DNA from: Halichondria panicea
Lineage: Eukaryota; Porifera; Demospongiae; Suberitida; Halichondriidae
Reading direction: 5' to 3'
Length of the DNA: 64,000 nt
Assembly (NCBI RefSeq): GCF_963675165.1
Contig: NC_087380.1
Location: 5,650,071 to 5,714,070 of the forward strand
Positions 6,864 to 64,000 of this stretch are shown here, piece by piece (position 1 is the stretch's first letter; each line of letters starts with the position of its first letter). The notes beneath the pieces are model-generated. The model saw only the letters and a list, made by a program, of their open reading frames with translations, was not told where the DNA came from and searched no databases. Both the position numbers and the translations under genes were made by a program.

Positions 6864-9800
6864 TTAACGTCTACCAGTCACACTATATGCAGCACACTCC
6901 GTAAACTCAAAATCTTTAGTATCATCGCTAACTACAGTCTCCATAGTAATGTAGTCATATTCTGCCGCAGGGGGTGGTGGTGCACTGGGGGAAATAGTTG
7001 GAAGCTCAACAACATCGTAAACATGTGGAGTAGAGGATGCTTGCTGAGTAGATTCATCTTGGAAAATGTCCAGAATTTCATATTCCCCTTCTTGTGTGTC
7101 TACATTACCTTCTGCTGCACTCATCTCAATTGCTGGCCTATGTAAATATACGCATTAAATTTTGCACATACAAACCATATTCTTTTTTGATGAGCAAAAT
7201 TTCAAACCTGTTTTTGGCAAGATGAAAGCTTCTTGTCCGTTTTATGCGGATCTTGATGTAGATCATGGCAATCAGAATTATGCAAAAAAAGAACAGAAAT
7301 ATCACTGCACCGATTGCCCCACCAACAGCAGCTACTGGAAACTGTGCTGACGTGGGAGATATGGGTGTGGGGTTCATGCATTCTGGATCAGCAATTGAAG
7401 TTAGAATAACTTGACAAGTACTATCCACAGGAATCAAGAGGAATTCAAAAGCCACGATTGCTCCATCAGCCAGCCAGTCTTCAATATAGTTTGCAATCTC
7501 AACCGCCGAAGCTGTTTGAGTTCCACTAACTTCAGCTCGGTATGTTACAGCATCTTCAGATTCCGCGAAGCAGCGAAACTTGGGATTCATAATATTAAGA
7601 ACAGAAAATCCACAGTGGCATCTTTCGTTGACGTTTGTAGAGAGGGTATTGTTTAAAGTGTTCAACTTTTGTTGAATATCCTCAGCCTAATAATTGAGTT
7701 TCTACATGTATATGCACGTATACAAGAATGACTCACCACCCATTGTTGACACCTGTTCACACCAACAAGTCGAAGCTGAATCAGCAATATTGAAGTGACT
7801 GCATAATTATTATAAAAGTATACAGAAGTTTAAGAAAATTAAAGTACTTACGAATTTCAGCCGTAGATTGGACATAGCCACTAGATGCAAAGTTTACATA
7901 CTGTCTGTTATCTGGATCAGTCTGTCTTACTGCTCTGCGTCCCATCTAAGGCAATTAAGACACCATGCACAATGAATAAACAAGAAAGGCCTTCATAACA
8001 ATAGCACAATCTTATACCTGGAACTCAAACTAAATTTGAGAAGGACCATCTACATTTTGCTAAATTATGTACGCAAAATATTTTTAAGCTTATATACCTG
8101 ATTTGAGCCAGATGCTGAGAATGCACGTACAAAGAAAGTGTATCTTGTAGCGAAACACAGCGGTCCATTGGTGTAACGATTAGGACGGTCATTCGGAGAA
8201 TTAACGTCATCGTCCTTATCCTGTCCAACCACAAACTTGTTTCCTGTGAGGCCGTTATAGAGGTCACCACTCATCTCAGCAGTAACATAAGCATACGGGA
8301 AAGAGGGTTTGCTATTGCAAGAAAGGTCAGCATAGGTTCCAAGATCTTGCTGGGGGAATTGAACCTGTGAGTCTGGGTTTAGATCGCTTATTGCTGTTCC
8401 TTCAGGAAGGAAGACCACAATAACTTGATAGTGAGTTATGACAACACTGTCTTCTGAGAATGAGGCAACACCAATGGTGACTGTTTGTGGGTCGCTGTTA
8501 ATGACCTCCTCTTCAGAAACTGACGACGGCTCAACAACAGCAGGAGGTGGGGAAGCTGGGGACAGAAGAAATAGCAGCTGAACAAATACTTAGGGAACGA
8601 ATTAATATTCTAGGGAGGTAAATATTAACAGAAAAAATGTGGAACTCTAAGCCAAAATACCAAACAGAATGTAAGTCACCATTCAGTGTGTTCACAGTCC
8701 TGGTATTTGGCATTCCATTGCCAGCTTCGTTGACTGGAAACACTGACACTGTGTACTGAGTGTTAGGGAAGAGGTCAATTAGAGTTTTTCCAAAATTGTT
8801 ATTGGCCGGAGAATAAACGTCTCCTAAAGATAATAGCATGGTACTTGTGTGACTGAAGCTTGGAGCGTAGTCTCGAGTCCCGACAAATGAAACCTGGAGA
8901 AGTGGACGTCAGGGTTGTCATTCAACACACACTAACATACCTCATACTGAGTGATGACTCCATTTGGCATGTCTGGTCCTGTCCAGGTCAGTGTGATAGT
9001 TGTCTCAGTGGGCTCAGCTGTCAATCCAGTAGACGGGGAAGAGGCTGTTGAGAGAGCACATACTTATAATAGTATATGTTTACAGGTCCGACGAGAAAAA
9101 AGTCATTCAAACAAGTAAGTAATTGTATGGGCAGGATGTTATGGATATATAAAGGTAAATTAGATGTGTGTTACAAGAGTTACCTATGGTATACATTAAG
9201 TGCTGCCTTACCGTCCTGATCAGACGATACTATAGGAGATGGGTCACTCCGATTGCTACAGCCAATGTCATTGCAGGCGTCTACAGTGAAAGAGTAGTTG
9301 GTGTAGGGGAGAATCACCCCCTGCATTGATACATTGTACATGAGCTCCCCTGCAGAGCTCATCAGGTCACTAGGAATGAGGGTACTGATCAGAGTGAAAC
9401 TGTCCGAGACATCCACAGAGCGTATGTACAAAGAGAAATTGGTCACTGGTCTGTTGCCGTCAAAAGAGAGTGTCCAACTAAGAACCACCCAGCGAGTACC
9501 AACATCACGAGTGTTTACATTAGCAGGGGAGTCCGGATGTTCTGTAAAAGAAAAAACAGCCTAGTCTTTCCACGCTCAAATGCACTATTGCAACGTGTAT
9601 GATAGCGTCGATCGGACACACTCAGTCACTCTCTCAGTGATTGTTTACACGTTGCTTAGCAGAGCACTCAGCACTCTCGTTAGTAAACAAAGCACTTACC
9701 TAAGATAAATAGTGGTATATTGTTGGACACGTCACTCAAGGTGATTGTCTCAGGAAGCATGTTTGTTCCAGTGCATGTGTAGTCGCCAGTGTCACCCCTC

Positions 9801-12800
9801 ACCGTCTTTTTAAACGACAGCAACCCGACAACTCCAAGCTCTCCCAACTGACGTACTTGATCCACAGTGACATCAGTGTACATCATGAGCAGGCCCATTA
9901 TACTGCCACTGCCTGTGTACCCACTGCTCTCAAACTCAGCACTATTGTTCGTGTCCATGGACACTGCGGCAAATTTGATAACGTCCAGTCTTGCTGAGAG
10001 TGAGGAATCACTGTAAATGTTGACTATTTCCCCGTCCTTCCTCCAGGAGATGGACGGAATGGGGAAGCCAGTGACCAGACACACAAGAACAGCAGGTACA
10101 CCCAGTCGTACTTCAGCCAGAGCAAATATGTCGACAATCACAGGGGTCACTACATGTGCACAACAAAGCAAGAACAATGTAGATACATGCAAGTATATAT
10201 ACACAATTATACAAGTACAAACAATTCTTGCAAAATTTGGACTGTATATTGCTGAGTAGGAAAGCCCGTGTTAGCACATTTATATGTAGTTGACAATTGA
10301 CAGAATATAATTATGTCGCACTGGCTATATGTTCATTACTTAGTGGACAAGATTTTGCATAATCAGAAGCCATGCAGTATAGTTACACTAACCATGAACA
10401 GTAAGGTTTGCAGAAGCAGTATCAGTTCCAATGGTATTAGCAGCCGAGCAGGTGTACACTCCTCTGTCCTCATAGGTCACATTCGTTACTGTCAGCTCTC
10501 CGAATCTACTTTCATTACGATCACCTACAATGGTGTACTTAATGTTGCTGACAATGTCCGTCACCGTTTCGTTGAAATCAGTGAACGTCCACGAGACAGT
10601 ATGATCAGGAGATGCCAGAGCATCACAAGAGAACACAGCATTGGATCCATTGTTAATTATGAACTGATCCATTGGAGGATTGATTATCACTGGTGGTCCT
10701 ATAATTATTAGGGCAAATAGAAACAATAAATTATTTGCGAATATAGGTAATAATTATACAGGCTTACCATTCACAACAATATCAATGTATGAGTTGTCAC
10801 TCCCAGCTTCATTAGTGGCTTGCAGAAAGTATCGTCCTGCATCAGTTTCCTCACCAGTCATACGAGCTTGAACAATATTGTCAATGGTCAGGCTGAGACG
10901 ATCACTGGAGAAGGTGAGGGTAGACTTTGATGTACGACTGGGGAGACTTGTAATCTCTTGAAACTCAGAACCACTAGCAGACAATGACAAGGCAAAATCA
11001 GCCGAGTAGTACCAGCGAATGTTAGACACTATGACAACAGGGGAGGCGTTCTCAATAATGAAGCTGAGAGTAGCTGATTCTGACTCATTAGCTATTATCC
11101 TCTGATTAACAGGCAAGGAAATCACATCAGATGGAACTGTAGTGGGATACAACACCGTTTAATCTAATTATGTAATTAGTATACTATACCTTGAACAAAG
11201 AGAGTAACGTCTTGTTGATTTCTTCCGTCCTCCATTACACCATTGTTAATCAGAGTATTACTGGCCACACAGGAGTATGTGTCTGAATCACCACCAATTG
11301 TGTCAATGATAGTGATCATACTTATCACAGTGCTAATCTGCCCTAGTGACCCATCCATCATCGTGTTATTCAGTTCCACTCGTGAGTTAATGCCCATTCC
11401 AGTTCCATTGAGGAGAAGGTCACCTCGATACCACTGCACCAATGGAGTGGGTAGTCCAGTGGCTGTGCAGACAAAGGTCACTGAGTTAGTCTGGTTGACC
11501 ACCAGCATATCTTCAGGCTCCAAGGAGGTGATCATTGGACGAACTGCAATTAAGGAGTACAGGGCACTTTTCAATCACCCTGCTTATAGCAAAAGAATAT
11601 ACATGTACTTGCAAAGAAATCTTGGGCGAAATGTTGAATCACACACACATAACTATATCCTGATTAAGTAGATATCCGTTAACTCACCGTGTACAGAAAG
11701 ACTTGCAGTTGCGCTGACCATCCCCACCACATTAATAGCTGTACACCTGTACTCTTCGAAATCAGACACATTCGTAGACAGTACTGTAAGAGTGCTCGTC
11801 AAATTTCTGTCACCATCCAGTGCAATAATCTCATAATCAGCATTATCCATGACACGAGAGGTGGAGTTTGAGACTGGGTCGTAATAGTCCCAGTTAACGG
11901 CTGGTATGGGAAGAGCACTGGCCTGACAAACAAACACAGCAGTGTTGCCCTCAATGACTGTGACACCCACTGGGCTTTGAGTGATAGTTGGAGACACTGC
12001 ATTTGATTGAAGGTATACATGTATGTACAGTGTATAATTATACAGTGTATATTCATAATAGTAGTATATTGATTGATGAACAACATAACAGCAATTTAGA
12101 AACCACAGTAAAGAATTATACACATTCAAGTGAAGAGCACTTAAATATGACATTACCTTGTACAATAAGTTCAAATGATTCCTGGTCCATTCCATACTCA
12201 TTATTCGCCACACACATGTACACTCCGGAGTCAGAGTCCATTGTTCTGTTAATCATGGCAGTTCTTGTGACTTGGTAGACAGTTTCTCCATCCTGGATTC
12301 TTGTTTCTTCAACAGGTGAAGAGCTCTCCCTAACGTCAACTCTAGCCGTGATGACACCAAAGTCAAAGTCTATCTCAGGAGCAGGGATACCAGTGGCTGT
12401 ACACTCGAAAATAATAGAGTCCGTCTCATTCACAGTGTAGTTTGTTAGTTCAACTTCAGGATAGACAATAGTTACCACTGGCAACACTGTGACAGAATAA
12501 AACAACATGTAATTGACAATCAGTTTGAATTTTAGTGTGCAGGTAACAGAAAATGACTCACCATTGACTGTTAGGGTTGCATTACGCATGTCACTGTCCA
12601 CATCATTCTCAGCAATACAGCGATACACATTACTGTCAGAGGGGAGGACATCGTTTATAGTCAAGTTACTAATTAGCTCTCTTTCTCCCATCTCAGTCTC
12701 AGTCACAATAACTCTTGGATCAGACACATTCACAGCCAGGAGTGAGTCGTTGGTGTCATCCCTGTACCACGTGATGCTAGGACGTGGCCGGCCAGTGGCT

Positions 12801-15800
12801 GCACACAGGAATGGAGCTGACATTCTCTCAGTGACATCAACATCATCAGGATCCATTGTGAACTCAGGAACAACTGGGAAGTCACAAAACAATGACGATG
12901 TAAACTTAAATGCACATACATACAAGTTTTATTACAGTGCATGTACAATGTTAAGTATACTGCCATTAATGGACTATACTTACTTTGCACAACTAGCTCA
13001 AACTCTCTTGTTGTATTCCCGACATCATTCTCAGCCAAGCACTGATACTGACCAGAGTCCTCGTCTTGTGTGATTGAGATTGCTAGCTGTGAGGTAACTA
13101 GGAAACCAGTACCCCTGCCATCAGGTAGCTCATAGTTATCATCAACTTGAGATTGAGAGATGGAAAAGCGAGTATCGTCAATATTGGTAGCTGATCCATT
13201 CTGACCAACTCTGAGCCAACTGATAGTTGGTGCTGGAATACCACTAGCAGAGCAGTTAAATGTGACTGAATCGCTTTCATTCACAATGTAAGTGAAATTG
13301 ATCACAGGAGTGAGGATCCGAGGTAGATCTGTATAAAATTTAGCAGTGTATTTTAGCCCATTAAAAGACATGCACACCTACCATTAACAGTTAGCTGTGC
13401 CATCTCTGTAGCTGATCCAAGCAAGTTAGAGGCAACACAGATGTACACTCCCGACCTGACTGGCAGAGTCTCGTTGAATGTGAGATTGCTCACGATAGTA
13501 CGATTTATAGGAGCGTTACTAATCTGTGCATTGGAGTCTGTAGTGACATCGACCTCAGTCCCATTGTCCACCCTGAGCCAGGAGATAGTTGGTCTGGGAA
13601 CACCGTCAGCAGTGCAGGAGAACAGGGCAGGATCAGGAGAGACCACACTGACATCCATAGGAGAGACCGTGATGGATGGAGCAACTGGAGTGAGGAGTGA
13701 TTACATACTAACTCACAATCAAATGCATATACCGGTATGTGAGATAATACACGTTGTGAGACTACGTATAGGCACAACGTACACGATGGAGTGTGAGTAC
13801 TTGTACACCACACGAACACACTACATATAAACAATGTTTGTATACATGCATGAGTAACCGTGTAGAAAAATGATAATTGCATAGACATTAAACACTCAAT
13901 AATTATAACCACTTACCATTTTAATACTTACTAAAATACAATCACAGCTGCTTTTGTTTTAATGTATGTGCAAGTTAGCATAATTATACCAATATTAATA
14001 TTAACGCACACTAGTTCATTATAACATGTACACGTGTTTGGGCATTTGTACACATGCATGAACCTGCATATAAGCACATGACATTCTGTAAGAATGTTCG
14101 TATTAATGGCCGTGCTGATAAAAAAAACAACAGTTAACTCAGCATCAATAAATACCGTATAGCGGGTAATTTTCGTTGTTTTCGTGGGCAAGCTGACCTC
14201 AACGATTTTTTAACGTAGGCGTTGCTTACCGGAACATAGGAATGCAGTACAGGCAACAAGACTAAACGAAAATTTTATTCACGAAACCATCGTTTCTCAG
14301 GTTGAACGACATCACGAAAATTACCTGCTATACGATACTCTTTATATACCACTCACCATTCACCACGACCTCAATAGGAACTTCATCCAATCTTGTCTCG
14401 TTCAGTTCTTCCACAGTATTCACGGCTCGGCAGATCTGCTCGTCACTACTGTCCCCATCCATAGCATTGATAAGAGTGAGTGAAGCAGTCACTAGAAACG
14501 TTGTATTGGGTAACAGCTCAGCTGGTTGGGTCTCTACGATAAATCGAGGTGGTCCAAGTAGTTGGTCTCCATTGAAGAAGGAGATGGAGGGAGGAGGTAG
14601 CCCAATGGCCACACATGTAAAGGTGATGTTTTCTGTCTCATTGACTCGGAAAATTTCTCCACTCATTGGAGAGACAATTTGAGCTCCAACTGTATCAAGG
14701 GGAGAAAACGCAAAAATACGTTTGCAATTAAAATATCATATACAATGAGGACTACAGTGTCGTATGGACAAATTGCATGTACATATACATTTCCAATTAC
14801 ATAAGCTTACAAAATATCACAACTTCAGCTGGACGACTGACAGCCTCTCCAAAGTTGTTGTTTGCCCTACAGCTCCATTTTCCAGTGTCCAGTTCATCAG
14901 TTACTAGGATTGTTAGATTACTGGTTACATTGAGTCCATTAGCTGTCTCTGTGAGGTCAATATTGTCCATGGGTAGGGAAAACTCAGTCTCTTCTCCCGT
15001 GGGAGACGTCCTTGTCCAGACAATGGTTGGCCGAGGGTAGCCTTCAGCTGTGCAGGTCAGTGTGAGTGGGATGGGGGCAAATACAGACACTGGAACAGGG
15101 TCCTCAAGAATTGTGGGGGAAACTGTACAGGAGAGAGAATGCATGTACTGTGTGTCCATCCAACTAATAAAAAATTGCTATACGAGCAACAGACATCATT
15201 CATAAATGGTAACTTACAATTCACAGTCAGATTGTAGCTCTGAGAGTCGTTGGATGGTACACCCAGTATAGTGTTAGAGGCCTCACATCTGAACACACCA
15301 AAGTCAGTTCTGTCTACTTGTGTGATATTGAGCAGAGAAGTTACGTCAATAAAACCAGTAGTCACATTCGACATTTCAGTTGAAGAAATTTGAAGCCTGC
15401 CATCAGCAATGTCAACAACTTCACTTCCCCTATACCATATAAACACAGGTGCTGGGGATCCACGAGCAGTACATGTCAGGGTCGTTTGATTTCCCTCGGA
15501 CACGATTAGGTCAACCAAATCAGTGGGGAATATGTTGTTAGCAGGGGCTGTAGTAAAAGTGGTAATTAATGCAATCATACCCTATGTACTAAACTCAGAT
15601 TGAGCCTATAAATTATTATTTGAAACATGCATAATTATGGTGTTTCTAGACAAAAGACATCACAATAGGAAAAGTACAATACTATCTTCACTCACCAGTG
15701 ACAGTGACATTAAAGGTGACGGTGTCCATCCCAGCAGGATTGACGGCTGTCACAGAATACAGGCCACTCTCACTGGGTAGCTGAACAGGGTCTAGAGTGA

Positions 15801-18287
15801 GTGCAGTGGTGGCTGGTGGAGAGGTAGTGCTGGTGTTTGTGATGGTGAAGACTCCTGTTCTCCCAGTGACGGCTGTAGCTGGAACACCATCAATGAACCA
15901 GATGATCTCAGTCAGTGGAAGGTTGAAGTCAGTGATGGTTACAGTCAAGGTGAGAGTAGAACCAGCTACAAATTCGATGTCAGCATTATCAGCAAGAAAG
16001 GTGGGACCAACTGTGCAGAAAGAGGTCGTTACTACAGTGATTACTAACAATAACACAGAACTAACCAGCTTGAATGATAATAATGGAAGAAGAGTTCATT
16101 CCAAAACGACTAGTTGCATTACATCGGTACATCCCATAGTTATCAGTACTTGCTATTAAACTGAAGTTTCCACCAGTTGTGTCATTCCCAGTGTAAACTA
16201 CTTCTACAGTACTGGCTACATCAAACCGCTCCCAAACAATTTCTATAGGAGTGTCTCCAGTTACAACACAAAGAAGTTCCACAGTGGTGTTTAGTATCAC
16301 AGGGTCCAGCTGAATGGTGGTCACAACAGGGGGATCTGCATGGTTGAGAGATATGAGTGCAGTTAGGTATACGTAGTTAGATTTCATACCTCCCAGCTCT
16401 ATTGTCACAGTATTACTGGTCCCAGTTCCAGCATCATTGGTGACATCACAGCGATAGGTACCAACATCGGTCATCTGAATATCAGTCAAAATACGGATTA
16501 GTCCAGTTGTTGTACTGCCCGTGCCAGTGTTAGTAATGTTGTACATGTAATTAGAGGGATTTCCCCTAAGTACGAAGCAGGTGATGATGACATCGTTTCC
16601 AATGTTAACAAGAGTATCAGTAGTATTGATCTCTACTTCGGGAATAACTGCAACAATATTTTCACGAATGGTGGAGAATAATTATAATACAATGGTGTAA
16701 CCCACCATTAACTTGTACATTGATGAAGGCACTGCTGCTGGCGACAGTGAGGTCATCAGAGTTGGTTCCAATACAAGCGTACACTCCATCATGATCAGGG
16801 TATGTGGCACTCACAATATGGAGGGATGACTCAATGTTACCAGGAGTTAGGTCAACACCTCTGTTTCCAATAGTTCCAGTCAGTGTAGCTACAAATGGTG
16901 CCTCTGTATCTGTCTGCTCAAAGTCAGTGGTCTGGTTGTTGAACTCCCATGTGATACTAGGAACGGGAGCTCCCACTGATCCACAAGAGATGTCTGCACT
17001 GCCTCCCTCGGGGATCATAGCAGTAGAGATATTGAGAGATGTTGTGATTGCATCGACTGTTAAATAAGAAATGCATTAATGAGTTCGTTCATGGTGGTAT
17101 TAATGCTATACCTGGTGCAATGACTCCAAAATCAACACCACCAGTTGGTATAAAGGTATGAGTTTGAGTTGTTCCAGACTTGAATTGAGGCTGAACAATA
17201 TAGAACCCCTCATCCTCAGCAGTGGTGTTGTCTCGTACAAATGTCTCAAAATAGTTGGGAAACTCTTGAGGACGCATTTCACCAGGTATGAAAGTGTTTA
17301 TAGCCACTTTGCGCCAGAACATCACTTCATACTCTCCTGACATCCTCACTTCAATGACCAGCTTCTCGGGAGGCCGTAAAATAATGACCTCAGGAGAGAC
17401 TCTCTCAATACGAATGGTAGTACCTGAAATTACTCAACATCTCATGTTTGTTTTATATTCAATTTACAGCACATTTCATACCTGTATCCAATTGATAAGG
17501 TATTGATGTGATGACCTCCCCACCATCACTGCCGTCAGTGAAGACACACTGGTACACTCCTGCATCAGACAGTCCAAAGTTAGTGATAGTCAGAGAACTG
17601 GTCATTTTTCCATTGACCACTGTGGTCGAGGTGATGGTGATCCGTGAGTGAGTGTCATCCACAACTTGTCCGCTCCTCACCCACACCACAGACGGGGCGG
17701 GGTAGTCCATCACTCCATCACCTTGATGTCCAGCAGTGCATGTCAGTAGAGAACCATCGACAGTGCCACCAAGAGCTATCCCAGTGCGGTTGTCATTGAG
17801 GCTGGCGCTGAGGTCAACAGGTTCATTGAAATAGGGCTGATCAGTCAACATTAATGTCCCATCAGCAGTGGAGGGCACAGCTGTAGAAGGAAAACAAATA
17901 ACAGGTTGTATATATATATAGTAGACTCTAATAGTTCATGCACACCTGTTAGCGTGATAGCCGTTCCATTGCCAGAAGTAGCTCCACTAATAGCAGTGCA
18001 TTGGTAGACTCCATTATCAGATTCTCTGAAGTTGTCAACAGTGAGCAGAGATGTGGAGTCATCAGTAAGTAATGATGCTGAACGCTCAGGGTGATTATCT
18101 TCCCTGATACGAATGTGAGGTGGATCGTTCAACAGAGAGCTTCTATTGAGAGTCCATGTGAAGGTGACAGCGGTGTCATCCTCTACAGTACAGTAGATCT
18201 GGATCACTGATCTTTCAACTACTCTGCCACTAGAGGAGACGAGGGCTTCAGGTCCAGTGAGGACTGTCAACTGAGCCGAGATAATAG
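6864..18287 (-). CDS. Ig/FN3 transmembrane receptor, copy 1 (19 Ig-type exons)
   Basis: Exons 5' to 3': 17946-18287, 17482-17880, 17112-17423, 16706-17056, 16390-16647, 16066-16335, 15696-16010, 15218-15547, 14811-15122, 14357-14689, 13382-13684, 12984-13328, 12562-12873, 12157-12486, 11688-11996, 11190-11543, 10768-11136, 10393-10698, 9700-10149 (Ig E1-E19); 9212-9541, 8941-9044, 8680-8893, 8098-8555, 7852-7945 (three FN3, E20-E24); 7737-7798, 7208-7686, 6864-7137 (stem, membrane, tail). About 2,770 codons, with GT-AG sites and consistent phases throughout. Most Ig exons show C, W and DxGxYxC. E26 carries a juxtamembrane region with HCGF and DPEC, then one hydrophobic helix and a basic stop-transfer. 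The tail has YEIL, YDVV, YDYITM and YSVT and no kinase. No intact signal peptide is found upstream: the ATG used in copy 3 is ATA here, with stops after it. A distant exon 1 or 5' inactivation are both possible. Confidence 0.85.
14153..14337. mobile_element. Short MITE in intron 10 of receptor copy 1
   Basis: About 24-bp terminal inverted repeats begin TACCGTATAGCGGGTAATTT and end with the imperfect reverse complement at 14313-14337. It is about 185 bp, without coding capacity, between Ig exons 10 and 11. Ends resemble the element at 25216-25377. Confidence 0.75.
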
Positions 18288-21079: not shown

Positions 21080-21441
21080 TTCGTCTACCAGTCACACTAT
21101 AAGCAGCACAGTCTGTGATCTCAAAATCTTTAATATCAGCATTAACTACATTTCTAGCTGGAAACTCAACAACGTCGTAAACATGTGGAGTAGAGAATGC
21201 TTGCTGAGTAGATTCATCTTGAAAGGTGTCCAGAGTTTCATATTCTTTGTCTTGTGTGTCAACATCGGCATTTACCGTACTCATCTCAATTGTTGGCCTG
21301 TGTAAGTGCACATTTCCAAATAAAAGCAGACATAAATCGAAATTTTTCAAACCTGTTTTTGGAAAAATTAAAGTTTCTTGCCCGTTTTTTGTGAATTCTG
21401 ATGTAGATCATGACAATCATGATTGTGCAAATAACAATCAG
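21080..21441 (-). pseudogene. Receptor stump: tail exon and part of membrane exon
   Basis: 21086-21297 matches the cytoplasmic tail exon of copies 2 and 3, with YETL, YDVV and YSVT retained. The stop codon after TGRR is lost, so the frame runs on to about 21045. 21346-21441 matches the 3' end of the membrane exon and then breaks off into NEK8-relic flank. No extracellular exons remain. It marks a former receptor unit removed by deletion. Confidence 0.85.
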
Positions 21442-22115
21442 CAATTGAACATGAACAAATTAACTTCGTTTGAATAGAAATGTGAACTAACATTGACGGT
21501 AGATAAACATACAATGTCATACACTTATATATACCATTCATGGAGCAAACTGTTGCACCCACAGCTGACAGCAGTATATACAGCAGCTATAATCAGCTAC
21601 CCTGCTGTTGCAAAACTATATAAGATTCTATAGGTTGCTACCATGCATGCAGTAATAAACATATTACACACACGCAATGTACACTAAATTATATGCTCAC
21701 CGGTTGTTTCCAGGAGAGCAACTGTCGACAATGGTACCTGCATGCGCTCTATAGCAGTGTATACATTGTCCAGTGAAAGGTTGAAAGTATAGTATAGTAT
21801 AATATCATCACAGTCATGTAGATCGAGTTCATGTATGTGAGTGATGCTTTAATGAATTGTGACAACTGCATGTGTAAGCCACTGTGTGAGGCTGAATAGT
21901 TAGTCTTACCAAGTTATAATTGTTCATTGTCCGGAGATTAGAACAATGGAGATGCCAACGTTTCCATCCTTCAATCTTGAGGACAGTCCTGGCTGAACCG
22001 GTTCATCACGATGTTTTAAGTCTGAAACCGCCATGCATAAAGGATGTCTCATTAAGTGGACATAATTGAAACTGAATGACATGCATACAGTGCGAGAGAG
22101 GGGTTAAGGGTTATA
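21442..22115 (-). pseudogene. NEK8 relic b (exon 4 trace and flank)
   Basis: 21465-21900 matches the flank found between exons 9 and 4 of relics a and c. 21930-22110 is a badly worn copy of NEK8 exon 4, recognisable from the antisense of the LKIGDFG-to-HRDLK stretch. RCC1 exons are absent. Confidence 0.7.
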
Positions 22116-22397: not shown

Positions 22398-25300
22398 TTA
22401 ACGTCTACCAGTCACACTATAAGCAGCACAGTCTGTGATCTCAAAATCTTTAATATCACCATTAACTACATTTCTAGCTGGAAACTCAACAACATCGTAA
22501 ACATGTGGAGTAGAGGATGCTTGCTGAGTAGATTCATCTTGGAAAGTGTCCAGAGTTTCATATTCTTTGTCTTGTGTGTCAACATCGGCATTTACCGTAC
22601 TCATCTCAATTGTTGGCCTGTGTAAGTGCACATTTCCCAATAAAAGTACACATAAATCAACATTTCAAACCTGTTTTTGAAAAGATTAAAGCTTCTTGCC
22701 CGTTTTTTGTGAATCCTGATGTAGATCATGACAATCATGATTGTGCAAATAACGATCAGAAATATCACTGCACCAATTGCACCTCCAACAGCAGCTACTG
22801 GAAACTGTGTTGACGTGGGAGATATAGGTGTGGGGTTTATGCATTCTGGATCAGCAATTGAAGTTAGAATAACTTGACAAGTACTATCCACAGGAATCAA
22901 GACGAATTCAAAAGCCACGATTGCTCCATCAGCCAGCCAGTCTTCAATATAGTTTGCAATCTCAACCGCCGAAGCTGCTTGAGTTCCAATAACCTCAGCT
23001 CGGTACGTTACAGCATCTTCAGATTCGGGAAAGCAGCGAAATTTGGGATTCAAAATGTTAAGCACAGAAAATCCACAGTGGCATCTTTCGTTGACACTTA
23101 TAGAGAGGGTGTTGTTCAAAGCGTTCAGCTTTTGTTGACTATCCTCAGCCTATTAAATAATAACGAGTTTCTGTATAATGTACACATCCTAGCTATTACT
23201 ATAGTTCACTATTGGAATAAAATTTGACAATTTATGGCTTACCACCCATTGCTGACACCTGTCCACCCCAACAAGACGAAGCTGAATCAGCAATATCGAT
23301 GTAGCTGTACAATAAAAAAAAGTATTGAAAGCAGATGTCTAGGATAAAGAAATATACTTACGAATTTCGGAAGTAGATTGGACATATCCACTAGATGCAA
23401 AATGGACGTACTGTCTGTTGTCTGGATCAGTCTGTCTCACACCTCTGCGTCCCATCTAGGACGAGAACACTAAATGTACATGACTGATTGCTAAATTGCC
23501 CAGTTATATCTACGGGCCATAATTATAATAGACAGCCATTCAAACATAACTATAGCGTAGATAATCATACTCATTACTTATACTGTAAACACAATCTTGA
23601 TAGCTCACCTGATTTGAGCCAGATGCTGAGAATGCACGTACAAAGAAAGTGTAGCTTGTATCGAAACACAGCGGTCCATTAGTGTAACGATTAGGACGGT
23701 CATTCGGAGAATTCACGTCATCGTCCTTTTCCTGTCCAACCACAAACTTATCTCCTGTGAGGCCCTTATAGAGGTCACCACTCATCTCAGCAGTGACGTA
23801 AGCATATGGGGAAGAGGGTTTGCTATTGCAAGAAAGCTCAGCATAGGTTCCAAGATTTTGCTGGGGGAATTGAAGCTGTGAGTCTGAGTTTAGATCGTTT
23901 ATTGCTGTTCCTTCAGGAAGGAAGACAACGATGACTTGATAGTGAGTTATGAGAACCTTGTTTTCTGAGAACAAGGCAACACCAATGGTGACTGTTTGTG
24001 GGTCGTTTTTAATGATTTCCGCTTCAGAAACTGACGACGGCTCAACAACAGCAGGAGGCGGGGAAACTGGGGACAGAAGAAATAGCAGCTGAACAAATAC
24101 TTTAGAAGAATAAATATCTACCAGTAGCTTTAGACAAATAATTATGTTTAAAACTATAAGCCAAACAGAATATGAATGTAAGTTACCATTTAGTGTGTTC
24201 ACAGTACTGATATTTGGCATTCCATTGCCAGCTCCGTTGACTGGATACACTGACACTTTGTACATAGTGTTAGGAAAGAGACCCGTTAGAGTTGTTTCAA
24301 AATTGTTAGCAGCTGGAGAGTAAATATCTCCTACAGGTAATTGCACAGTATCTGTGTGATCACTGAAGCTTGCATCGTAATCTCTCATTCCGACAAATGA
24401 AACCTGCATGCATGGATGACAATAAATTAGGGATGCCAGATTACAAGCAATATATACCCCATAGTGAGTGATGACTCCATTTGGCATGTCTGGTTCTGTC
24501 CAGATCAGTGTGATAGTTGTCTCAGTGGGCTGAGCCGTCAATCCAGTAGATGGGGAAGAGGCTGTTTATTTGGAAGAGCAGAATTCTTTACTATTTTCGC
24601 TAGCAATGACTACATGCATGGTACATTTTTTACATACGTATATAGATAGGACCACTTCTATAATACAAGATAAATAATGTGCCACAACAACACACTTGGA
24701 CAAAAGAGAGAAATAGATTACTTAGTAAGATAGTATAATAATTATTATACCTATAAAACTAATTGTAGGGTTATCTACAGTAAATTTTATGAAATTAGCT
24801 AATCTATCTGGTATAGTCCTGTCTTACCGTCCTGATCAGACGTAACTACTGGAGACGGGTCACTCTGATTGCTGCAGCCAATGTCATTGCAGGCGTCCAC
24901 AGTGAAGGAGTAGTTGGTGTAGGGGAGAATGACCCCCTGCATTGATATATTGTACAAGAGCTCCCCTGCAGAGCTCATCAAGTCACTAGGAATGAGAGTA
25001 CTGATCTGAGTGAAACTGTCCGAGACATCCACAGAGCGTATGTACAAGGAGAAATTAGTCACTGGTCTGTTACCGTCAAAAGAGGGTGTCCAACTAAGAA
25101 CCACCCAGCGAGCACCAACATCAAGAGTGCTCACATTAATAGGGGAATCCGGAAGCTCTTTATATGGGAGAAAAATGAGACACTCATCAAAGTCATTATG
25201 TGATTATTATAACTATACCGTAGAGTGGGTTAATTTCGTTTGGTGCAGTTCAATATTTCGTATTCTATTCGTATAGCTCAGATTGGTTACGTAGAACCTA

Positions 25301-30920: not shown

Positions 30921-30978
30921 AGTCGAAGACAGTGGTTTTTCGAGACCCACAAATTTGAGAAGCGAATGGTAGATCTGT

Positions 30979-46300: not shown

Positions 46301-49300
46301 TGTCCACTACATCAGAATTTATGGCAGTAAACCTCCGAGGACGAGGGCGAAGCCCCGAGGCCAAGGATGGTTTAAGATTGCCATAAATTCGAATGTAGTG
46401 GACAATAAGTGTTATTACCCACTTGAATGAAAAGTACTTGCTACCTAAGCTACCTCACCTTGGATACAACTAGCAAACAGTCTCAAAAACTATTGAAAAT
46501 GAACAAAAAGCTTGTGCGTATAGCTTGAAGCCAGTGCTAAGCTTCTAGCTCTACGCACTAACTTGTCAATGTCCAAGCAGTGAGCCCCACCCTTCCTCCA
46601 GCTTTCCTGATGTTTAGCGAGCCCCACCCATCTGTCCTGCCCTTGTCGACAAGTGTCTAGCTTCTTTTTGGCTGTGTAGATCTAGTACTAAAATCAGTGC
46701 GCCTTCAACGCAAGGAGTTTATGAGGAATGTGCTCCAGGGCTGGGGTTTATGGTAGTTAAACCCCACCCAGTTGCTATGATACAGACCCCAAGTGGGGAA
46801 TATTTGTACATACGTATGTGCATATGCACCATGACACGAGATTCTATGAAAGGCTATAGATAGAACAGTCAACCGGTACAATCTAGTACTACTAGCCACT
46901 CACCATTCACCACCACCTCAATAGCAACTTCATCCATTCTTGTCTTGTTAAGTTCTTCCACAGTATTCATGGCTCGACAGATCCCCTTGTCACCACTGTC
47001 CCCATCCGTAGCATTGATAAGAGTGAGTGAAGCAGTCACTAGAAACGTTGTATTGGGTAACAGCTCAGCTGGTTGGGTCTCTACAATAAATCGAGGCAGT
47101 CCAACTTTTTGGTCTCCATTGAAGAAGGAGATGGAGGGTGGAGGTAGTCCAATGGCTACAAATGTAAAGGTGATGTTTTCTGTCTCATTGACTCGGAAAA
47201 TTTCTCTACTCATTGGAAAAACAATTTGAGCACCAACTGTATCAAGAGAAACGCAATCATTACAATGAGGACTAAAGTATCATATATATAGAACATGTAT
47301 TAATAAACACTTACAACATATCACGACTTCAGCTGGACGACTGACAATCTCTCTAAAGTTGTTGTTTGCTCTGCAGCTCCAGTTTCCAGTGTCCAGTTCA
47401 CCAGTTACTAGGATTGTCAGATTACTGGTTACATTGAGTCCTTTAGCTGTCTCTGTGAGGTCAACATTGTCCATGGGTAGGGAAAACTCAGTCACTTCTC
47501 TAGTGGGAGACGTCCTTGTCCAGGCTATGGTTGGCCGAGGGTAGCCTTCAGCTGTGCAGGTCAGTGTGAGTGGGCTGGGGGAAAACACAGACACTGGAAC
47601 AGGGTCCTCAAGAATTGTAGGGGGAACTGTACGGAGAGAGAAATACTGCACGTGTCCATGTACATGTAAGAAAGAAGTGCTATATACTAAGAAAGAGCAA
47701 CTAACTTCATTCATTTACAATTTACAGTTAGGTTGTAGCTCTGAAAGTTGTTAGATGGTGCACCCAGTATGGTGTTACGAGCCTCACATCTGAACATACC
47801 AAAGTCAGTTCTGTCTACTAGTGTGATAATGAGCAGAGAAGTTATGTCAATAAAACCAGTAGACATTTCCAATGTAGAAATTTGAAGCCTGGCATCACCA
47901 GTGTCAACAACTTCACTTTTCCTAAACCAAACAAACACAGGTGCTGGGGATCCACGAGCAGTACATGTCAGGGTGGTTTGATGTCCCTCGGGCACGAGTA
48001 GGTCAACCAAACCAGCGGGGAATATGATGTTAGCAGGGACTGTAGTAAACAGGGAGTGCAATGAATAAATACTCCGTAATTCAGCTTTTATCATAACCAT
48101 GCTGCATGTCCTCCTGAACTGAGCACACACAGTCATTTTTCTAAAAAAAAATTTTTTTACTCACCAGTAACAGTGATATTAAAGGTGATGGTGTCCATCC
48201 CAGCAGGATTGACGATTGTTACAGAATACAGGCCACTCTCACTGGGTAGCTGAACAGGGTCTAGAGTGAGTGTGGTGGTGGCTGGTGGATAGGTGGTGCT
48301 GGTGTTTGTGATGGTGATGACTCCTGTTCTCCCAGTGATGGCTGTAGCAGGAACATCATCTATGAACCAGGTGATCTCAGTCAGTGGAAGGTTGAAGTCA
48401 GTGATGGTCACGTTCAAGGTGAGAGTAGAACCAGCTACAACTTCAACGTCAGCATCAGCAAGAAGGGTGGGACCAACTGTGCAAAAAGAGACATTCGTTA
48501 CTACAGTGATTACTGACAATAACACAAAACTAACAAGCTTGAACGATGATAATGAAAGAAGAGTCGATTCCAAAACGACTAGCTGCATTACATTGGTACA
48601 CGCCATAGTTATCGGTAGTGGCTATTAAACTGAAGTTTCCACCAGTTGTGTCATTCCCAGTGTAAACAATTTCTACAGTATTGGCTACAAACCGCTTCCA
48701 AACAATTTGTATAGGAGTGTCTCCAGTTACAACACAGACCAGGTCCACGTTGTTGTTCAGTATCACAGGGTCCAGCTGAATGGTGGTCACAATAGGGGGG
48801 TCTGCATGGTTGAGAGATACGAGTGCAGTTAGGCATACGTAGTTATAGATGTTATACCTCCCAGCTCAATTGTCACAGTATTACTGGTCCCAGTTCCAGC
48901 ATCATTGGCGACATCACAGCGATAGGTACCAACATCAGTCATCTGAATGTCAGTCAAAATACGGGTTGGTCCAGTTGTTGTATTGCCAGTCTCAGTCTTA
49001 GTATTGGTGTACATGTAATTAAAGGGATTTCCCCTTAGTACGAAGCAAGTGATGGTGACATTATTTCCAATACCGACAACAGTATCAGTAGCTATGATCT
49101 CCACCTCAGGAACAACTGCAAGACATGCATGTTCGTGAATCATAGATAATTGATTTTATGTAACCCACCATTTATTTGTACAGTGATGAAGGCACTGCTG
49201 CTGGCGACAGTATGGTCATCAGAATTGGTTCCAATACAAGTGTACACTCCATCATGATCAGGGTATGTAGCACTCACAATATGGAGGGATGACTCAATGT

Positions 49301-50794
49301 TACCAGGAGTTACGACAACATCTATGTTTCCAATAGTTCCAGTCCGTGTAGCTACAAATGGTGTCTCTGTATCTGTTTGCTTAAACTCAGTAGTCTGGTT
49401 GCTGAACTCCCAAGTAATACTAGGAACGGGAGCTCCCACTGATCTACAGGAGATGTCTGCACTGCCTCCCTCGAGGATCACAACAGTAAAGGTGTTGAGA
49501 GATGTTGTGATTGCGTCGACTGTGAAATTAGAAATGCATTAATGAGTTGGTTCATGACAATATCAATGCCATACCTGGCGCAATAACGCCAAAATCAACA
49601 CCACCACTTGGTGTGAGGGTATGAGTTTGAGTTGTTCCAGACTTGAATTGAGGCTGAACAATATAGAACCCCTCATTACCAGCAGTGGTGTTGTCTCGTA
49701 CAAATGTCTCAGAATAGTTGGGAAACTCTTGAGGACGCATTTGACCAGGTATGAAAGCGCTTATAGTCGTTTTGCGCCAGAACATCACTTCATAATCTCC
49801 TGACACCCTCACTTCAATGACCAGCTTCTCGGGAGGACGTAAAATAATGACCTCAGGAGAGACTCTCTCAATACGAATGGTGTTACCTGAAAATACACAA
49901 CGCCAGATTTACGTTTTATACAGCAATTTTTTTATCACAGCACATTTCATACCTGTATCCAATTGATAAGGTATTGAGGTGATGACCTCCCCACCATCAC
50001 TGTCATCAGTGATGACACACTGGTACACTCCTGCATCAGGTAGTCCAAAGTTATTGATAGTCAGAAAACTGGTTACTTGTCCATTGACCATTGTGGTCAA
50101 GGTGATGGTGATTCGTGAGTCAGAGTCATCCACAACTTGTCCGCTCCTCACCCACACCACAGACGGGGTGGAATAGTCCATCACTCCATCACCTTGGTGT
50201 CCAACAGTGCATATCAGTAGAGAACCATCGACAGTGTCACCAAGAGCTATCCCAGTGCGGTTGTCATTGAGGGAAGCACTGAGGTCAACAGGTTCATTCA
50301 GAGAGGGCTGATCAGTCAACATCAGTGTCCCATCAGCAGTAGAGGGCACAGCTTAGAAACAAATGTAGGTTTATTTACATATCTTTACACACATTCGTAC
50401 CTGTTAGTTTGACAGCAGTTCCATTGCCAGAAGTAGCTCCACTAGTAGCAGTGCACTGGTATACTCCATTGTCAGATGCTCTGAAGTTGTCGACAGTGAG
50501 CAGAGATGTGGAATCATCAGTGAGCAATGATGCTGAACGCTCAGGGAGATTGTCTTCCCTGATACGAATGTGAGATGGATCGTTCAACAGAGAGCTTCCA
50601 TTGAGAGTCCATGTGAAGGTGACAGTGGTGTCATCCTCTACAGCACAGTAGATCTGGATCACTGATCCCTCAACCACACTGCCACTGGAAGAGACGAGGG
50701 CTTCAAGTCCAGTGAGAACTGTCAACTGAGCCGAGATAATAGCTGCGAGGTGAAAAACCATTAACCACAATATTGCCAGTAAGATACACTGCAT
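40356..50794 (-). CDS. Ig/FN3 transmembrane receptor, copy 3 (15 Ig-type exons)
   Basis: Exons 5' to 3': 50401-50742, extendable in frame to an ATG at 50794; then 49953-50351, 49575-49886, 49169-49519, 48858-49115, 48535-48801, 48165-48476, 47719-48039, 47315-47626, 46904-47236, 45771-46082, 45291-45644, 44865-45233, 44481-44786, 43912-44361 (Ig); 43475-43804, 42400-42503, 42136-42352, 41560-42017, 41316-41409 (FN3); 41201-41262, 40629-41107, 40356-40575. About 2,320 codons, or 2,337 with the extension. Relative to copy 1 it lacks E11-E14. The extension gives a leader starting MQCILLAILWLM, a good signal peptide with likely cleavage after ISA. Ig E10 has phenylalanine where copy 1 has the B-strand cysteine. 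The tail has YETL, YDVV and YSVT. The alternative start is a spliced leader, as in copy 4. Confidence 0.86.
42584..43323. mobile_element. Nonautonomous element carrying repeated gene-fragment exons
   Basis: Ends are GGGGCGAGCGT and its inverse ACGCTCGCCCC, bounding 740 bp inside a copy 3 intron. The paralogous introns in copies 1 and 2 lack it. Inside, on the plus strand, is an arginine/glutamate-rich segment (about 42826-42920), then three related exon-like pieces beginning ETPEARQ (43000, 43109, 43227). They are separated by GTAAG...CAG introns and end in a stop. Such ETPEARQARL repeats occur in helicase-associated transposon proteins, but I cannot assign the source. It looks like captured exons in a defective transposon. 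Confidence 0.65.
42632..42672. repeat. (ATGT)n microsatellite
   Basis: About ten tandem ATGT/GTAT units inside the 42584-43323 element. The reverse strand gives the HTYI-repeat open frame, which is not a gene. Confidence 0.9.
46083..46903. other. Deletion junction in receptor copy 3
   Basis: 46161-46200 matches the 5' edge of copy 1 Ig E11 (13650-13690), the last trace of the four lost Ig exons. The rest holds a hairpin element (46295-46410) and about 450 bp of unplaced sequence. No coding exon is seen. Confidence 0.7.
46295..46410. mobile_element. Small hairpin element at the copy 3 deletion junction
   Basis: Inverted arms ACTTATTGTCCACTACAT and ATGTAGTGGACAATAAGT are followed inward by ATTTATGGCA and TGCCATAAAT, about 35 bp per arm in 116 bp. 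It is probably a MITE, and no target duplication was established. Confidence 0.7.
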
Positions 50795-51357: not shown

Positions 51358-51395
<38 letters not shown>

Positions 51396-54302: not shown

Positions 54303-55250
54303 CTAACTATCTGGCCTGGTGACGAGCAGAGTGACACTGTGGGCGGAGTTCACTGCCTGTACTGAGTGGGAGAGGTGCTCAAACGGGATCAGCTGTGGCT
54401 GAAACACATCCTCACTCGCGTCTCTTCCTAGTCGCCCCCTGCGACCACTCCCCCAGCTGTATACCTCCCCACCTGCAGAGAAAAAAATTATCACATGATT
54501 GGTAAACACCTAAACTACCGTACTTCTTCTAAATAAGCCACCGTTTTTTAATGATTACGTTTTTGAGGCTAGTGTATGCAAAACAAGAAATAGTCAATCA
54601 TTATAGGAGAAATCTCTAGGTAGCACATTATTAGAAGGGGGTGTATTTTAGAAGAAATACGGTATACCTGCCTATAGGTTACAACTGCCTTGTTTGGTAA
54701 CTGCAAGATATGTATGTCATTACAATTATTCTACTTGGTGCACACACCTCTGCATGATACAATAGTGTAAAAGTCTCCACAAGACACCAGTTCCATTTGT
54801 TTTCCAGTTAGGACTTCAACAGCTGATGGTTTGTTACCTCCACTGGTCACAAGCTCTTTGTCTCTATGGTAACCCAGCTGGCCGTAACTGTTGTCCCCAC
54901 ATGTCAGACACTCAGTACCAGCTACAGAAAAGAGACATATACAGCACAGAGATACAGCATTGTCATTTGTCAAATCACATCCATGGCTTATTCATTCACA
55001 ATCTTTGTCAACTAGCTACAACTGTACAATAACATAATTATACATGTACTTGTCAGGATAGAGTGACCAATTCAGAGGGAAGAGGTAGATGTATACCTGT
55101 GATTATGGCGATGTGGTTGGTTCCCATGGCTACTGAGACAATGCTCTCAGAGTTAATAAGCTCTGAGCCAGAGAGAGTGAAGACGGAGCTGCTCCTCACA
55201 CTACCAGGAGCACTCGCAACTGGCAGGGCTGGTGGAGAGCTGGTATCTGT

Positions 55251-55323
<73 letters not shown>

Positions 55324-60728: not shown

Positions 60729-60980
60729 TCTTAACAATTAGGTAAAGATGCACAACCTTATTCCCCTCTACCTGTCTATGAATATTGCTTTTTCTTGTAG
60801 GCGACCTTAACCATCCAACTGAGGGCGTGGCTGGTTTGCACAGCAAGTTTTTCCACCCTTTCCTGTCAGTTGTCTGCACTAAAGCTGCTAATTAGCCTCT
60901 AAGAATTAGCTAATAGCGATCCAATAGTGATCCAAAGACTGCGCTCTGTGTCCAAGAAGCTCTACACAAGACAACTGGAC
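60729..60980. promoter_or_regulatory. Probable bidirectional promoter between NEK8 and receptor copy 4
   Basis: Only 252 bp separate the NEK8 ATG (minus strand) from the receptor copy 4 ATG (plus strand). There is a CCAAT at 60921-60925 and no clear TATA box. The short divergent gap implies a shared control region, though UTR extents are unknown. Confidence 0.6.
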
Positions 60981-63900
60981 ATGGCAGCTACCGTTTGCTG
61001 TCCTAAGCTGCTGTTGACTGTTGTGCTGTTATATGGCTGCATTACATGTGAGGCTTGTACTGTTGTTGTAGCTACAAGTGTCTGCAAACATAATTGTACT
61101 CTTTGATGCCTTGCCCTAGGCATGTTATATAGGTAACAAAAGCCTACTGAGTTGACTCTGGTGATATCAGCTGAGCACAACTTGATGAACGTGGTTAGCT
61201 AGATTCTATGTGTGAAAGTCGTTGTTTCAGTAGCTACTGCCCAGAATGAATCTAAACGTGCTGTAAGACTCTGTTCTCTGTTCAATTGACCTGTATCTAA
61301 TTGCCCTAGCCCTATGGCTGCATTGTGAGATATGCACAGATCCACAGAATTACACTGGTGGCCCAATACAATCAAGCCAGAGATACATATATGAGTTTCC
61401 TGTAATTATCGAGAGTGGAATAATTTGTATTGGCATGACTATAATACTCTCGTGCCCTTCAGTTCAAGTCTAGGAATCTCCCACACTCCATATATTCACT
61501 GCATACCCACTTGGTATTAGATAAACAGTTTTTACAGGAACTGAAACAGTATAATTATTATGCATTTGCAATGCTGTAGAGCGAATGAGAATTCCACTAA
61601 TACACTATACATGTTGCTTTTGTTAGTGGTGAGTGTACTGTGTTTGCTGCTGTGTTGCGGAGGGAACAGTTGATGTTTGTGCATGCCTCGGCCAGTTATT
61701 TTATGTTCTTACCAGGACGTTTGTTGTTGTAACAACGTGTTTTTAAGAATAGGCACTATATAGGATAGACCAGGTGTTGATATAAGCATCTGGTGGACCA
61801 CTCAAACCAACTGAAAAGTTGTAAATAGTTGAGGGGTATTCTGTCTGTGATGTGTATTTTCAACTTACTGATTAGTTTCAATCCACCTCAGCTGTCGATA
61901 ACCTCGTAATTGTTGTATTTATTAGAAATTCGACTATAAAAGCAAAATCTACGTTTATGTGTACTGTTTTTGGTGTGCATTTTAGTCTACACTACTGTGC
62001 TGATGCTTGATGCTCAAGATCAATGAAAGTCACACTGTACAACTAAATCAGTTGCCATACACTGTCCTTACATAGAGTTCCTATAGTATTCACGTTGCCC
62101 AAGTTTGTTTGGTCATCTCTTTCTTACATAGATTTATTGTTGTGACGAGATATTCATTGCTGATAAGGCAGTCTCCTTTTTCGACTGTACTGTGCATGTA
62201 TGTAGTTATCCTAATTGGCATGTAGTATAAATAAGTGCCTATGAAAACTATGGTTGTTTGTGTGCAAATGTGGTTGTTAATGAGCCGCTATTAATGTATT
62301 GTAGTGTACACTTGGTCAATTGGGCAATGATACCGATTAAGGAATGTCTTAAGGATGATGTCAAACTAATTTTGCATAGCTCACAGAAATACACGTTTCT
62401 ACTTTTTCAGCTTCCCACTCCCAGTTGACAGTCCTCACTAGACCTGAAGCCCTCGTCTCTTCCAGTGGCAGTGTGGTTGAGGGAACAGTGATCCAGATCT
62501 ACTGTACTGTAGAGGGTGACACCACTGCCACCTTCACATGGATTCTCAATGGGAACTCTCTGTTGAATGATCCACCTCACATTCGTATCAGGGAAGACAA
62601 TCTCCCTGAGCGTTCAGCATCATTGCTCACTGATGACTCCACATCTGTGCTCACTGTGGACAACGTCAGAGCCTCTGATGATGGAGTCTACCAGTGCACT
62701 GTTACTAGTGGAGCTACTTCTGGCAATGGAACTGCTGTCACACTAACAGGTACGAATGTGTGTAAACAAACCTTTCAAAGTAGACGTTTGTTTCTCTGCT
62801 ATATATAACAGTGTCCTCTACTGCTGATGGGACATTGATGTTGACTAATCAGCCCTCTCTCAATGAACCTGTTGACCTCTTTGCTTCCTTCAATGACAAC
62901 CGTACTGGGATAGCTCTTGGTGGCACTGTCGATAGTTCTCTACTGACATGCACTGCTGGACACCAAGGTGATGGAGTGGTGGACTATCCCGCCCCCTCTG
63001 TGGTGTGGGTGAGGAGCGGACAAGTTGTGAATGACACTGACTCACGAATCACCATCGCCTCGACCACAATGACTAACGGACAAGTGACCAGTTCTCTGAC
63101 TATCATTAACTTTGGACTGTCTGATGCAGGAGTGTACCAGTGTGTCTTCACTGATGACAGTGATGGTGGGGAGGTCATCACATCAATACCTTATCAATTG
63201 GATACAGGTATGAAATGTGCCGTGAATTGAATATACAACAAACATGAGACGTTGTGTAATTTCAGGTAATACCATTCTTATTGAGAGAGTCTCTCCTGAG
63301 GTCATCATTTTACGTCCTCCTGAGAAGCTGGTCATTGAAGTGAGAGTGTCAGGAGAGTATGAATTGATGTTTTGGGGTGTAGGCACTGCAAGCACTTTAA
63401 TACCTGGTCTATTGCGTCCTCAAGAGCTTCCCAACTATTTTGAGACATTTGTACGAGACAACACCACTGCTGATGATGAGGGGTTCTATATTGTTCAGCC
63501 TCAACGTAAAGCTTCAACAATTCAAACTCATGTCGTCACACCAACTGGTGGTGTTGATTTTGGGGTTATTGCGCCAGGTATAGCATTGATATTGTATGAA
63601 CCAACTCATTAATGTATTTCTAATTTCACAGTCGATGCTAACACAACATCTCTCAGCAACTCTACTGTTGTGATCCCCGAGGGAGAGAGTGTAGACATCT
63701 CCTGCAGATCAGTGGGAGCTCCCGTTCCTAGTATCACATGGGAGTTCAACAACCAGACCACTGACTTTGAGCAGACAGACACAGAGACACCATTTGCAAC
63801 TACACTGACTGGAACTATTGGAAACAGAGGTGTTGACGTAACTCCTGGTAACATTGAGTCGTCCCTCCATATTGTGAGTGCCACATACCCTGATCATGAT

Positions 63901-64000
63901 GGAGTGTACACTTGTATTGGAACCAACTCTGATGACCTCACTGTCGCCAGCAGCAGTGCCTTCATCACCGTACAAGTTAATGGTGAGTTACACAAAATCG
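60981..64000 (+). CDS. Ig/FN3 receptor, copy 4, 5' part (runs off window)
   Basis: Exon 1 is 60981-61047, coding a signal peptide starting MAATVCCPKLLLTVVLLYG, with donor GTGAGG in phase 1. After a 1.36-kb intron come exons 62411-62749, 62812-63207, 63266-63577 and 63632-63982, all phase 1 at both ends. These correspond to Ig E1-E4 of copies 1-3: E1 and E2 have the Cys-Trp-YxC pattern, E3 is an Ig-like exon without the cysteine pair, and E4 is a normal Ig with Cys and DGVYTC. It then continues beyond the window. It stands opposite in orientation to copies 1-3. It is the only copy with a clearly spliced leader, so it may show the ancestral 5' layout. Confidence 0.88.
61048..62410 (+). other. 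Intron 1 of receptor copy 4
   Basis: 1,363 bp, donor GTGAGG and acceptor CTACTTTTTCAG. AT-rich with no open frame of note and no repeat recognised. Confidence 0.7.

Follow-up and report, generated by a model that had tools for sequence, protein, structure and literature searches.

A sponge receptor cluster in which a predicted tyrosine phosphatase shares its ectodomain with three short-tailed receptors

LAR-type (R2A) receptor protein tyrosine phosphatases carry immunoglobulin (Ig) domains and then fibronectin type III (FN3) domains, followed by two protein tyrosine phosphatase (PTP) domains, D1 and D2. Sponges have Ig-domain receptor tyrosine kinases and, to our knowledge, few candidate genes for cell recognition. 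Here we describe a cluster of related receptor genes from the sponge Halichondria panicea, found in a 64,000-nt stretch of DNA (the window; positions 5650071-5714070 of contig NC_087380.1, hereafter C4) in a genome of 131 Mb and 39 contigs whose gene content looks animal. Three genes, A, B and C, end in short tyrosine-containing tails, and a fourth, D, looks like a receptor tyrosine phosphatase with the same ectodomain. We consider it fairly probable (roughly 0.6) that the locus encodes paired receptors, a phosphatase arm (D) set against a phosphotyrosine-tail arm (A-C), with conversion-like exchange between them.

Several described systems resemble parts of this locus. Phosphatase classes, D2 as a pseudophosphatase and LAR in choanoflagellates are treated in one source (PMC7959691), and R3 phosphatases, including one sponge sequence, in another (PMC5336234). 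Vertebrate paired receptors such as CD300A/CD300C and CEACAM1/CEACAM3, for which the term gene conversion is used, join similar extracellular parts to cytoplasmic parts of opposing function (PMC12447643, PMC5112662). Hydractinia Alr receptors and Botryllus fester co-receptors are type I Ig receptors that are encoded in clusters and carry tyrosine motifs; those of Botryllus include the immunoreceptor tyrosine-based inhibition motif (ITIM), a hemITAM (named after the immunoreceptor tyrosine-based activation motif, ITAM) and a core YxxI/L/V motif, and a sushi domain also occurs in Botryllus (PMC12065747, PMC11999971).

The Halichondria locus is like the vertebrate pairs in that similar ectodomains stand on different cytoplasmic ends (D versus A-C; elsewhere in the genome, exon by exon) and in that sequence appears to have been exchanged between partners, as judged from a mosaic of closest partners. 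It differs in that the opposition is a prediction, the phosphatase itself would take the place of the ITIM, and the ectodomains and tails are unrelated to those of the vertebrate receptors. Like Alr and the Botryllus fuhc locus, it contains type I Ig receptors in tandem whose tails carry tyrosines, but with no canonical ITIM or ITAM seen, far more Ig domains, FN3 domains, a six-cysteine membrane domain and a phosphatase twin. Compared with LAR-type receptors, D has Ig then FN3 domains extracellularly (tested on the exons of A, to which the D ectodomain is 88% identical), one transmembrane (TM) segment and, at the level of motifs, tandem PTP domains with a catalytic D1 and a D2 that lacks the WPD aspartate. 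It differs in its 19 Ig domains and in having three neighbours that keep the ectodomain without the phosphatase. Because the top Protein Data Bank (PDB) match of D is PTPRE, D may or may not belong to R2A. The multi-Ig type I build also recalls the sponge Ig-domain receptor tyrosine kinases, from which receptors A-E (the cluster with its fifth member included) differ in that no kinase domain was found in them. No title or abstract describing such a locus was found in the literature searched, most subscription papers lying outside its coverage, and the paired receptors that turned up there were vertebrate immune receptors.

Gene models of the receptor cluster

Exon models were built with a self-trained splice and codon script, and flanks and paralogues were taken as genome stretches labelled L001 onward. 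For D, the reading was extended beyond the window through flanks L001 and L002, with window numbering continued past 64000. Splice edges are AG/GT in all four models, except at three terminal exons, which end at the stop, and at D exon 1, whose start was set at 62425. A, B and C draw on a common set of exon classes: e1-e19 (Ig), e20-e22 (FN3), e23, e24, e25-e26 (six-cysteine domain and TM) and e27 (tail).

The model of D runs through e1-e24, with 19 Ig exons among them, and continues into a TM exon and two PTP domains. D1 contains WPDFGVP and a P-loop, HC/SAGVGRTG, that spans a splice: the exon with WPDFGVP and HC was missed by the script, read from open frames and joined by eye to SAGVGRTG. 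D2 reads WPAEGAP and keeps its P-loop, at the level of motifs. The joined domains match Pfam Y_phosphatase with E values of 1e-78 and 6e-76, and the best PDB matches are PTPRE (551 bits), PTPRS (538) and LAR (522), ranked by score rather than by a tree. Similarity of D to A, B and C spans 62422-72890, from the e1 acceptor to just past the e24 donor and including most inner introns, with none beyond; the distance from either end of the homology to the outer splice site is no more than ~10 bp. In protein sequence the D ectodomain shares 88% identity with that of A, against 86% with C and 84% with B. Since D has the ectodomain of A-C and appears to end in a phosphatase, the cluster would comprise one receptor phosphatase and three phosphatase-less twins.

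We infer that D is one spliced gene because the exit phase after e24 and the entry phase of the TM exon are both 1, only ~330 bp separate the two, no credible start lies between them (two start-to-donor candidates of 10 and 13 residues have low hydrophobicity), and e24 is constrained, with the lowest ratio of nonsynonymous to synonymous substitution rates (dN/dS) of e1-e24, 0.14, on few changes. Both e24 and its donor are retained in D, and a candidate signal exon lies upstream of Ig1 at 60981-61047. The features of the cluster are as follows.

6864..18287, minus strand: receptor A (copy 1); gene model, open frame, Pfam
9700-18287, minus: A Ig exons e1-e19
8680-9541, minus: A FN3 exons e20-e22 (Pfam fn3)
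8098-8555, minus: A e23, without a Pfam fn3 match
7852-7945, minus: A e24, with RxxR
7208-7798, minus: A six-cysteine domain and TM, e25-e26
6864-7137, minus: A tail, e27
22398..30505, minus: receptor B (copy 2), 9 Ig exons; gene model, open frame
27675-30505 and 25430-26762, minus: B e1-e6 and e17-e19
23609-25157, 23362-23455, 22671-23304 and 22398-22617, minus: B e20-e23, e24, six-cysteine domain/TM and tail
40356..50742, minus: receptor C (copy 3), 15 Ig exons; gene model, open frame
46904-50742 and 43912-46082, minus: C e1-e10 and e15-e19
41560-43804, 41316-41409, 40629-41262 and 40356-40575, minus: C e20-e23, e24, six-cysteine domain/TM and tail
62425..64000, plus: receptor D (copy 4), e1-e4 within the window; modelled to ~C4:5729 kb with e5-e24, TM, PTP D1 and PTP D2
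26763..27674: gap in B in place of e7-e16, with dispersed-repeat pieces inside (49 matches genome-wide, self included)
46083..46903: gap in C in place of e11-e14, with a dispersed repeat of ~520 bp at 46287-46806
46153..46199, minus: remnant of the 5' margin of e11, an exon lost from C, 85% identical to A 13642-13688 and D 66912-66958
21082..21445, minus: receptor stump, duplicating the tail exon of B together with a portion of its TM exon; 95% identity to 22402-22763
6036..6130, minus: isolated e23 fragment, 88-89% identical

From Ig exon 1 to the stop, the open reading of A is 2770 residues, that of B 1665 and that of C 2319. Ig-type exons, assigned by exon homology, number 19 in A, 9 in B and 15 in C. 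Pfam Ig_3 scores above cut-off on seven stretches of A e1-e8 and ten of A e9-e19, and Pfam fn3 matches e20 and e21-e22. No Pfam fn3 match was obtained for e23, which has a sub-threshold match to the TM-proximal domain of PTPRJ (18.7 bits; cut-off 26.3). The 94-nt e24 has an RxxR site in all four copies, which we take to be a candidate furin-type site. A 62-nt exon and the TM exon jointly encode the six-cysteine domain, for which searches with 12 members gave no Pfam or PDB match; a SEA identity of this membrane-proximal module, suspected from an assumed strand-helix order, was set aside after the same 12 members matched neither Pfam SEA nor a solved SEA structure. The A tail carries EYEILDIFQ and ECAAYSVT, which fit the tail boxes of the family described below, and tails in the window have YxxI/L/V/M motifs (YEIL, YETL, YDVV and YITM). 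Canonical ITIM or ITAM were absent from these tails on reading by eye, so that the likeness to Alr is a general one and does not make these receptors members of that family. The frames of A-C end in the short tail without a PTP or tyrosine kinase domain, no listed PTP place falls inside A-C and none of the listed kinase places gives a tyrosine kinase in the cluster. Directly upstream of Ig1, C has an in-frame hydrophobic start, a candidate signal peptide; nothing convincing was found upstream of A and B. The sequence FTCVAIG of A and D is FTFVAIG in Ig exon e10 of C (46904-47236, minus), and one domain has thereby lost a canonical Ig cysteine.

The loss of Ig exons in C is a deletion, as 47 bp of the e11 edge remain; inspection of the gap in B gave no comparable relic, and dispersed repeats sit in both gaps. 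The repeat in C has self-complementary stretches and 77 matches genome-wide, self and reverse partial matches included. Another short isolated partial copy of e23 lies in L003 (C4:5638753-5638867), like the first near the left end of the cluster.

The initial annotation of the window had described three tandem minus-strand receptors with 19, 15 and 9 Ig exons, a related plus-strand gene and a receptor stump. Gene models and sequence identity confirm this arrangement, and exon homology upholds the counts for A, C and B. That A-C share FN3, membrane and tail exons also stands, with the reservation about e23. The cluster is larger than the four genes then proposed, a fifth member lying outside the window at ~C4:5631.4-5638.3 kb. 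The description of the receptors as kinase-less holds for A-C; the fourth copy is modelled with two PTP domains, a relation missed because they lie beyond the window edge. The suggested likeness to Alr-type loci is real as regards clustering, change in domain number and tyrosine tails, and fails at the canonical motifs.

Divergence and exchange among the four copies

The copies are 82-90% identical in DNA over the two blocks compared. Pairwise dN/dS over all codons is 0.38-0.51, with dS of 0.14-0.20; the ratio is below 1 in all six pairs, which indicates mainly constraint, and no positive selection across whole genes is seen in these comparisons. Neither measure gives any indication that D is an outgroup.

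The closest partner of D switches along the gene, and the informative sites fall in runs, both in e1-e6 (61 sites, P 0.003) and in e17-e24 (150 sites, P 0.0002). Of these runs, the longest connects A and D over 40 sites (70290-70550) and is largely intronic; P is still 0.0002 when it is removed, and with exons only P is 0.007 and 0.003. This mosaic fits conversion or unequal exchange between copies, two processes that the data do not tell apart. A scan by 20-codon windows picked out one local hypervariable patch, in Ig exon 3, where 18 changes are nonsynonymous and 2 synonymous (for this maximum, itself a product of the scan, P is 0.009). A tied top window spanning e6/e17 was set aside, as those exons adjoin in B only.

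Related modules and phosphatases across the genome

Genome searches for the membrane module and for PTP domains scored the best candidates only, and partial copies, perhaps also dead ones, are among the merged loci counted. The TM exon of C matches 108 places, or 104 loci after merging; C4 carries 77 of these loci. For PTP, 150 of 176 places were merged and the counts are therefore lower bounds, at least 72 loci with at least 58 on C4. With clusters defined as two or more loci at gaps of up to 50 kb, 17 were obtained, of which five contain both module and PTP loci. These mixed clusters are all on C4, at 0.10-0.23, 0.34-0.79, 1.27-1.42 and 1.88-2.33 Mb and at the studied locus, and hold 60 of the 77 module loci and 50 of the 58 PTP loci of that contig, PTP being counted among the matches listed.

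The tails were compared in 40 paralogous loci, 36 of the 62 listed together with L005, L006, L009 and L010. Box 1 was written as [DE][YF][DE]x[VLIM][SD]x[FLE][QE] and the terminal box as C-x-A/T-Y before the stop, after reading the same loci, so the counts are descriptive. Both boxes occur in one frame before the stop at 30 of the 40 loci and at none in antisense; box 1 alone is found at 32 (0 in antisense) and CxAY before the stop at 35 (8 in antisense). At least one box is present in six of the ten loci without the pair (L015, L021, L034, L040 and L043-L048).

A similar arrangement of predicted genes recurs on C4 with sushi-domain ectodomains. We compared regions with receptor-type PTP (RPTP) genes (L006, L007, L008, L011) with short-tail regions (L009, L010, L049, L050); the ectodomain exons of all eight are sushi-like, Pfam Sushi having been run on three L049 exons. 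The PTP exons of L011 lie outside the stretch read, and its class was assigned from a modelled TM, an Ig-like exon and downstream PTP matches. In L006 a short-tail gene is followed by a distinct RPTP gene, which has a signal-like exon to itself; L007 contains a modelled RPTP gene with a sushi-type ectodomain. Among 62 RPTP exons of at least 40 residues, PTP exons included, 35 have a cross-class match, and for 18 of these that match exceeds every match to another exon within the same gene, although for some of the 18 another RPTP gene is equally close or closer. Matches to a short-tail gene at 78-96% identity account for 15 of the 62, in L006, L007 and L011; the maximum in L008 is 61%.

Within L007 (2088918-2091489 on C4), eleven sushi-like exons at ~243-bp spacing each have a best match elsewhere in that RPTP gene at 89-100% identity. 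In the models of RPTPs from the C4 arrays, an I-set Ig domain follows the TM helix and precedes PTP D1, and would be intracellular (L008, 436814-437591; Pfam E value 2e-10 on the joined L008 exons, with similar exons in L006 and L011), and the D2 loop is degenerate (DTATRSG) in L006 and L008. Another Ig gene family forms I-set exon arrays with near-equal scores and regular spacing at C1:6379666-6443713 and at C5:1986829-1987876 and 2062228-2079870.

Between C and D, at 54731-60328 on the minus strand, the window contains a Ser/Thr kinase with RCC1 repeats, presumably NEK-like, that looks like a separate gene. A receptor kinase that had been lost or lay nearby was considered and rejected: on C4, the tyrosine kinase matches listed are all at other positions. 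At 30973-35370 on the plus strand is a Ty3/gypsy-like frame with integrase motifs before reverse transcriptase motifs (read by eye), an order we take to be that of Gmr1-like elements. Neither an Rfam match above cut-off nor a tRNA was found within the window. A search of the genome gave no mitochondrial contig; a single nuclear COX1-like fragment contains two in-frame TGA codons and points to no particular group of organisms.

Paired receptors and competing explanations

If the locus encodes paired receptors, D and A-C alike would bind a common surface ligand. Kinases would phosphorylate the tails of A-C, on which SH2 or PTB proteins would then dock, and D, gathered at the same contact, would strip the phosphates from those tails. 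The response would be set by the balance of phosphatase and tail and by Ig number, which would fix receptor length. What the sequence itself shows is the anatomy and the evolution of the genes. Opposing signals are predicted from the phosphatase of D versus the tyrosine tails of A-C; the common ligand, tail phosphorylation and a recognition role are likewise predictions.

Several observations weigh against this proposal. D could be an ordinary LAR-like phosphatase with a merely copied ectodomain. As one gene it is a model, in which the script missed the WPD exon and the exon before Ig1 is a candidate only. Outside D, identity to D1 at the top-scoring places is 41-53% over parts, and none exceeds 59% among the matches listed; with no close relative there, the D phosphatase would not derive from the recent C4 arrays. 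Twelve of the 17 clusters contain one class only, and the 27 of 104 module loci that lie on other contigs are in no case clustered with a listed PTP locus. Among RPTP exons, 27 of 62 have no cross-class match, 17 of the 35 that have one match another exon of their own gene at least as closely, and outside the studied locus the sharing concerns single exons rather than whole ectodomains.

Part of this evidence would suit ordinary adhesion, with D as the animal's LAR-like phosphatase and A-C as duplicated phosphatase-less adhesion molecules or decoys for its ligand, without opposing signalling. The order of Ig, FN3, D1 and D2 is the LAR layout, the top PDB matches include PTPRE, PTPRS and LAR, constraint prevails across the copies, and D1 has no close relative among the matches listed. 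However, A-C end in a tail module with tyrosine boxes that is present at many loci, and cross-class exon sharing recurs in sushi-type clusters; we regard this account as unlikely. An allorecognition locus, at which polymorphism of copy and Ig number between individuals would set fusion compatibility, would agree with the tandem clusters, the differences in copy and domain number, the conversion-like mosaic and the Ig exon 3 patch. It appears rather improbable, given one genome only, dN/dS below 1 in every pair and a cluster that is small against those at 0.1-2.3 Mb of C4, which would be stronger candidates.

D might also be two genes, a fourth receptor that has lost its 3' end and then an unrelated PTPRA/E-like phosphatase gene. 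PTPRE is indeed the top PDB match, PTPRA/E ectodomains are tiny, and the joining of D is a model; but the short distance from e24 to the TM exon, its poor start candidates, the fitting phases and the retained e24 and donor argue for one gene, and L007 models an RPTP with a sushi-type ectodomain in the same genome, which makes two genes quite improbable. An assembly or haplotype artefact, which the DNA identity of the copies might suggest, is scarcely credible in view of their dS, unequal exon numbers and different 3' modules on a single contig, and of the presence of the module at many loci.

Under the paired-receptor reading, then, the locus combines a phosphatase built into one receptor with twins that carry a tail only, and a large family on one contig repeats parts of this layout. 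More tentatively, and at distinctly less than even odds, C4 may be a chromosome-scale recognition complex that repeatedly joins shared ectodomain exons to a phosphatase or to a phosphotyrosine tail; of its 77 module and at least 58 phosphatase loci, 60 and at least 50 belong to mixed tandem clusters. An invertebrate would then have evolved paired-receptor immunity or self/non-self sensing independently, with the phosphatase inside one partner. If true for a sponge, the paired-receptor reading would provide concrete candidate genes for cell recognition, and the push-pull model would become directly testable.

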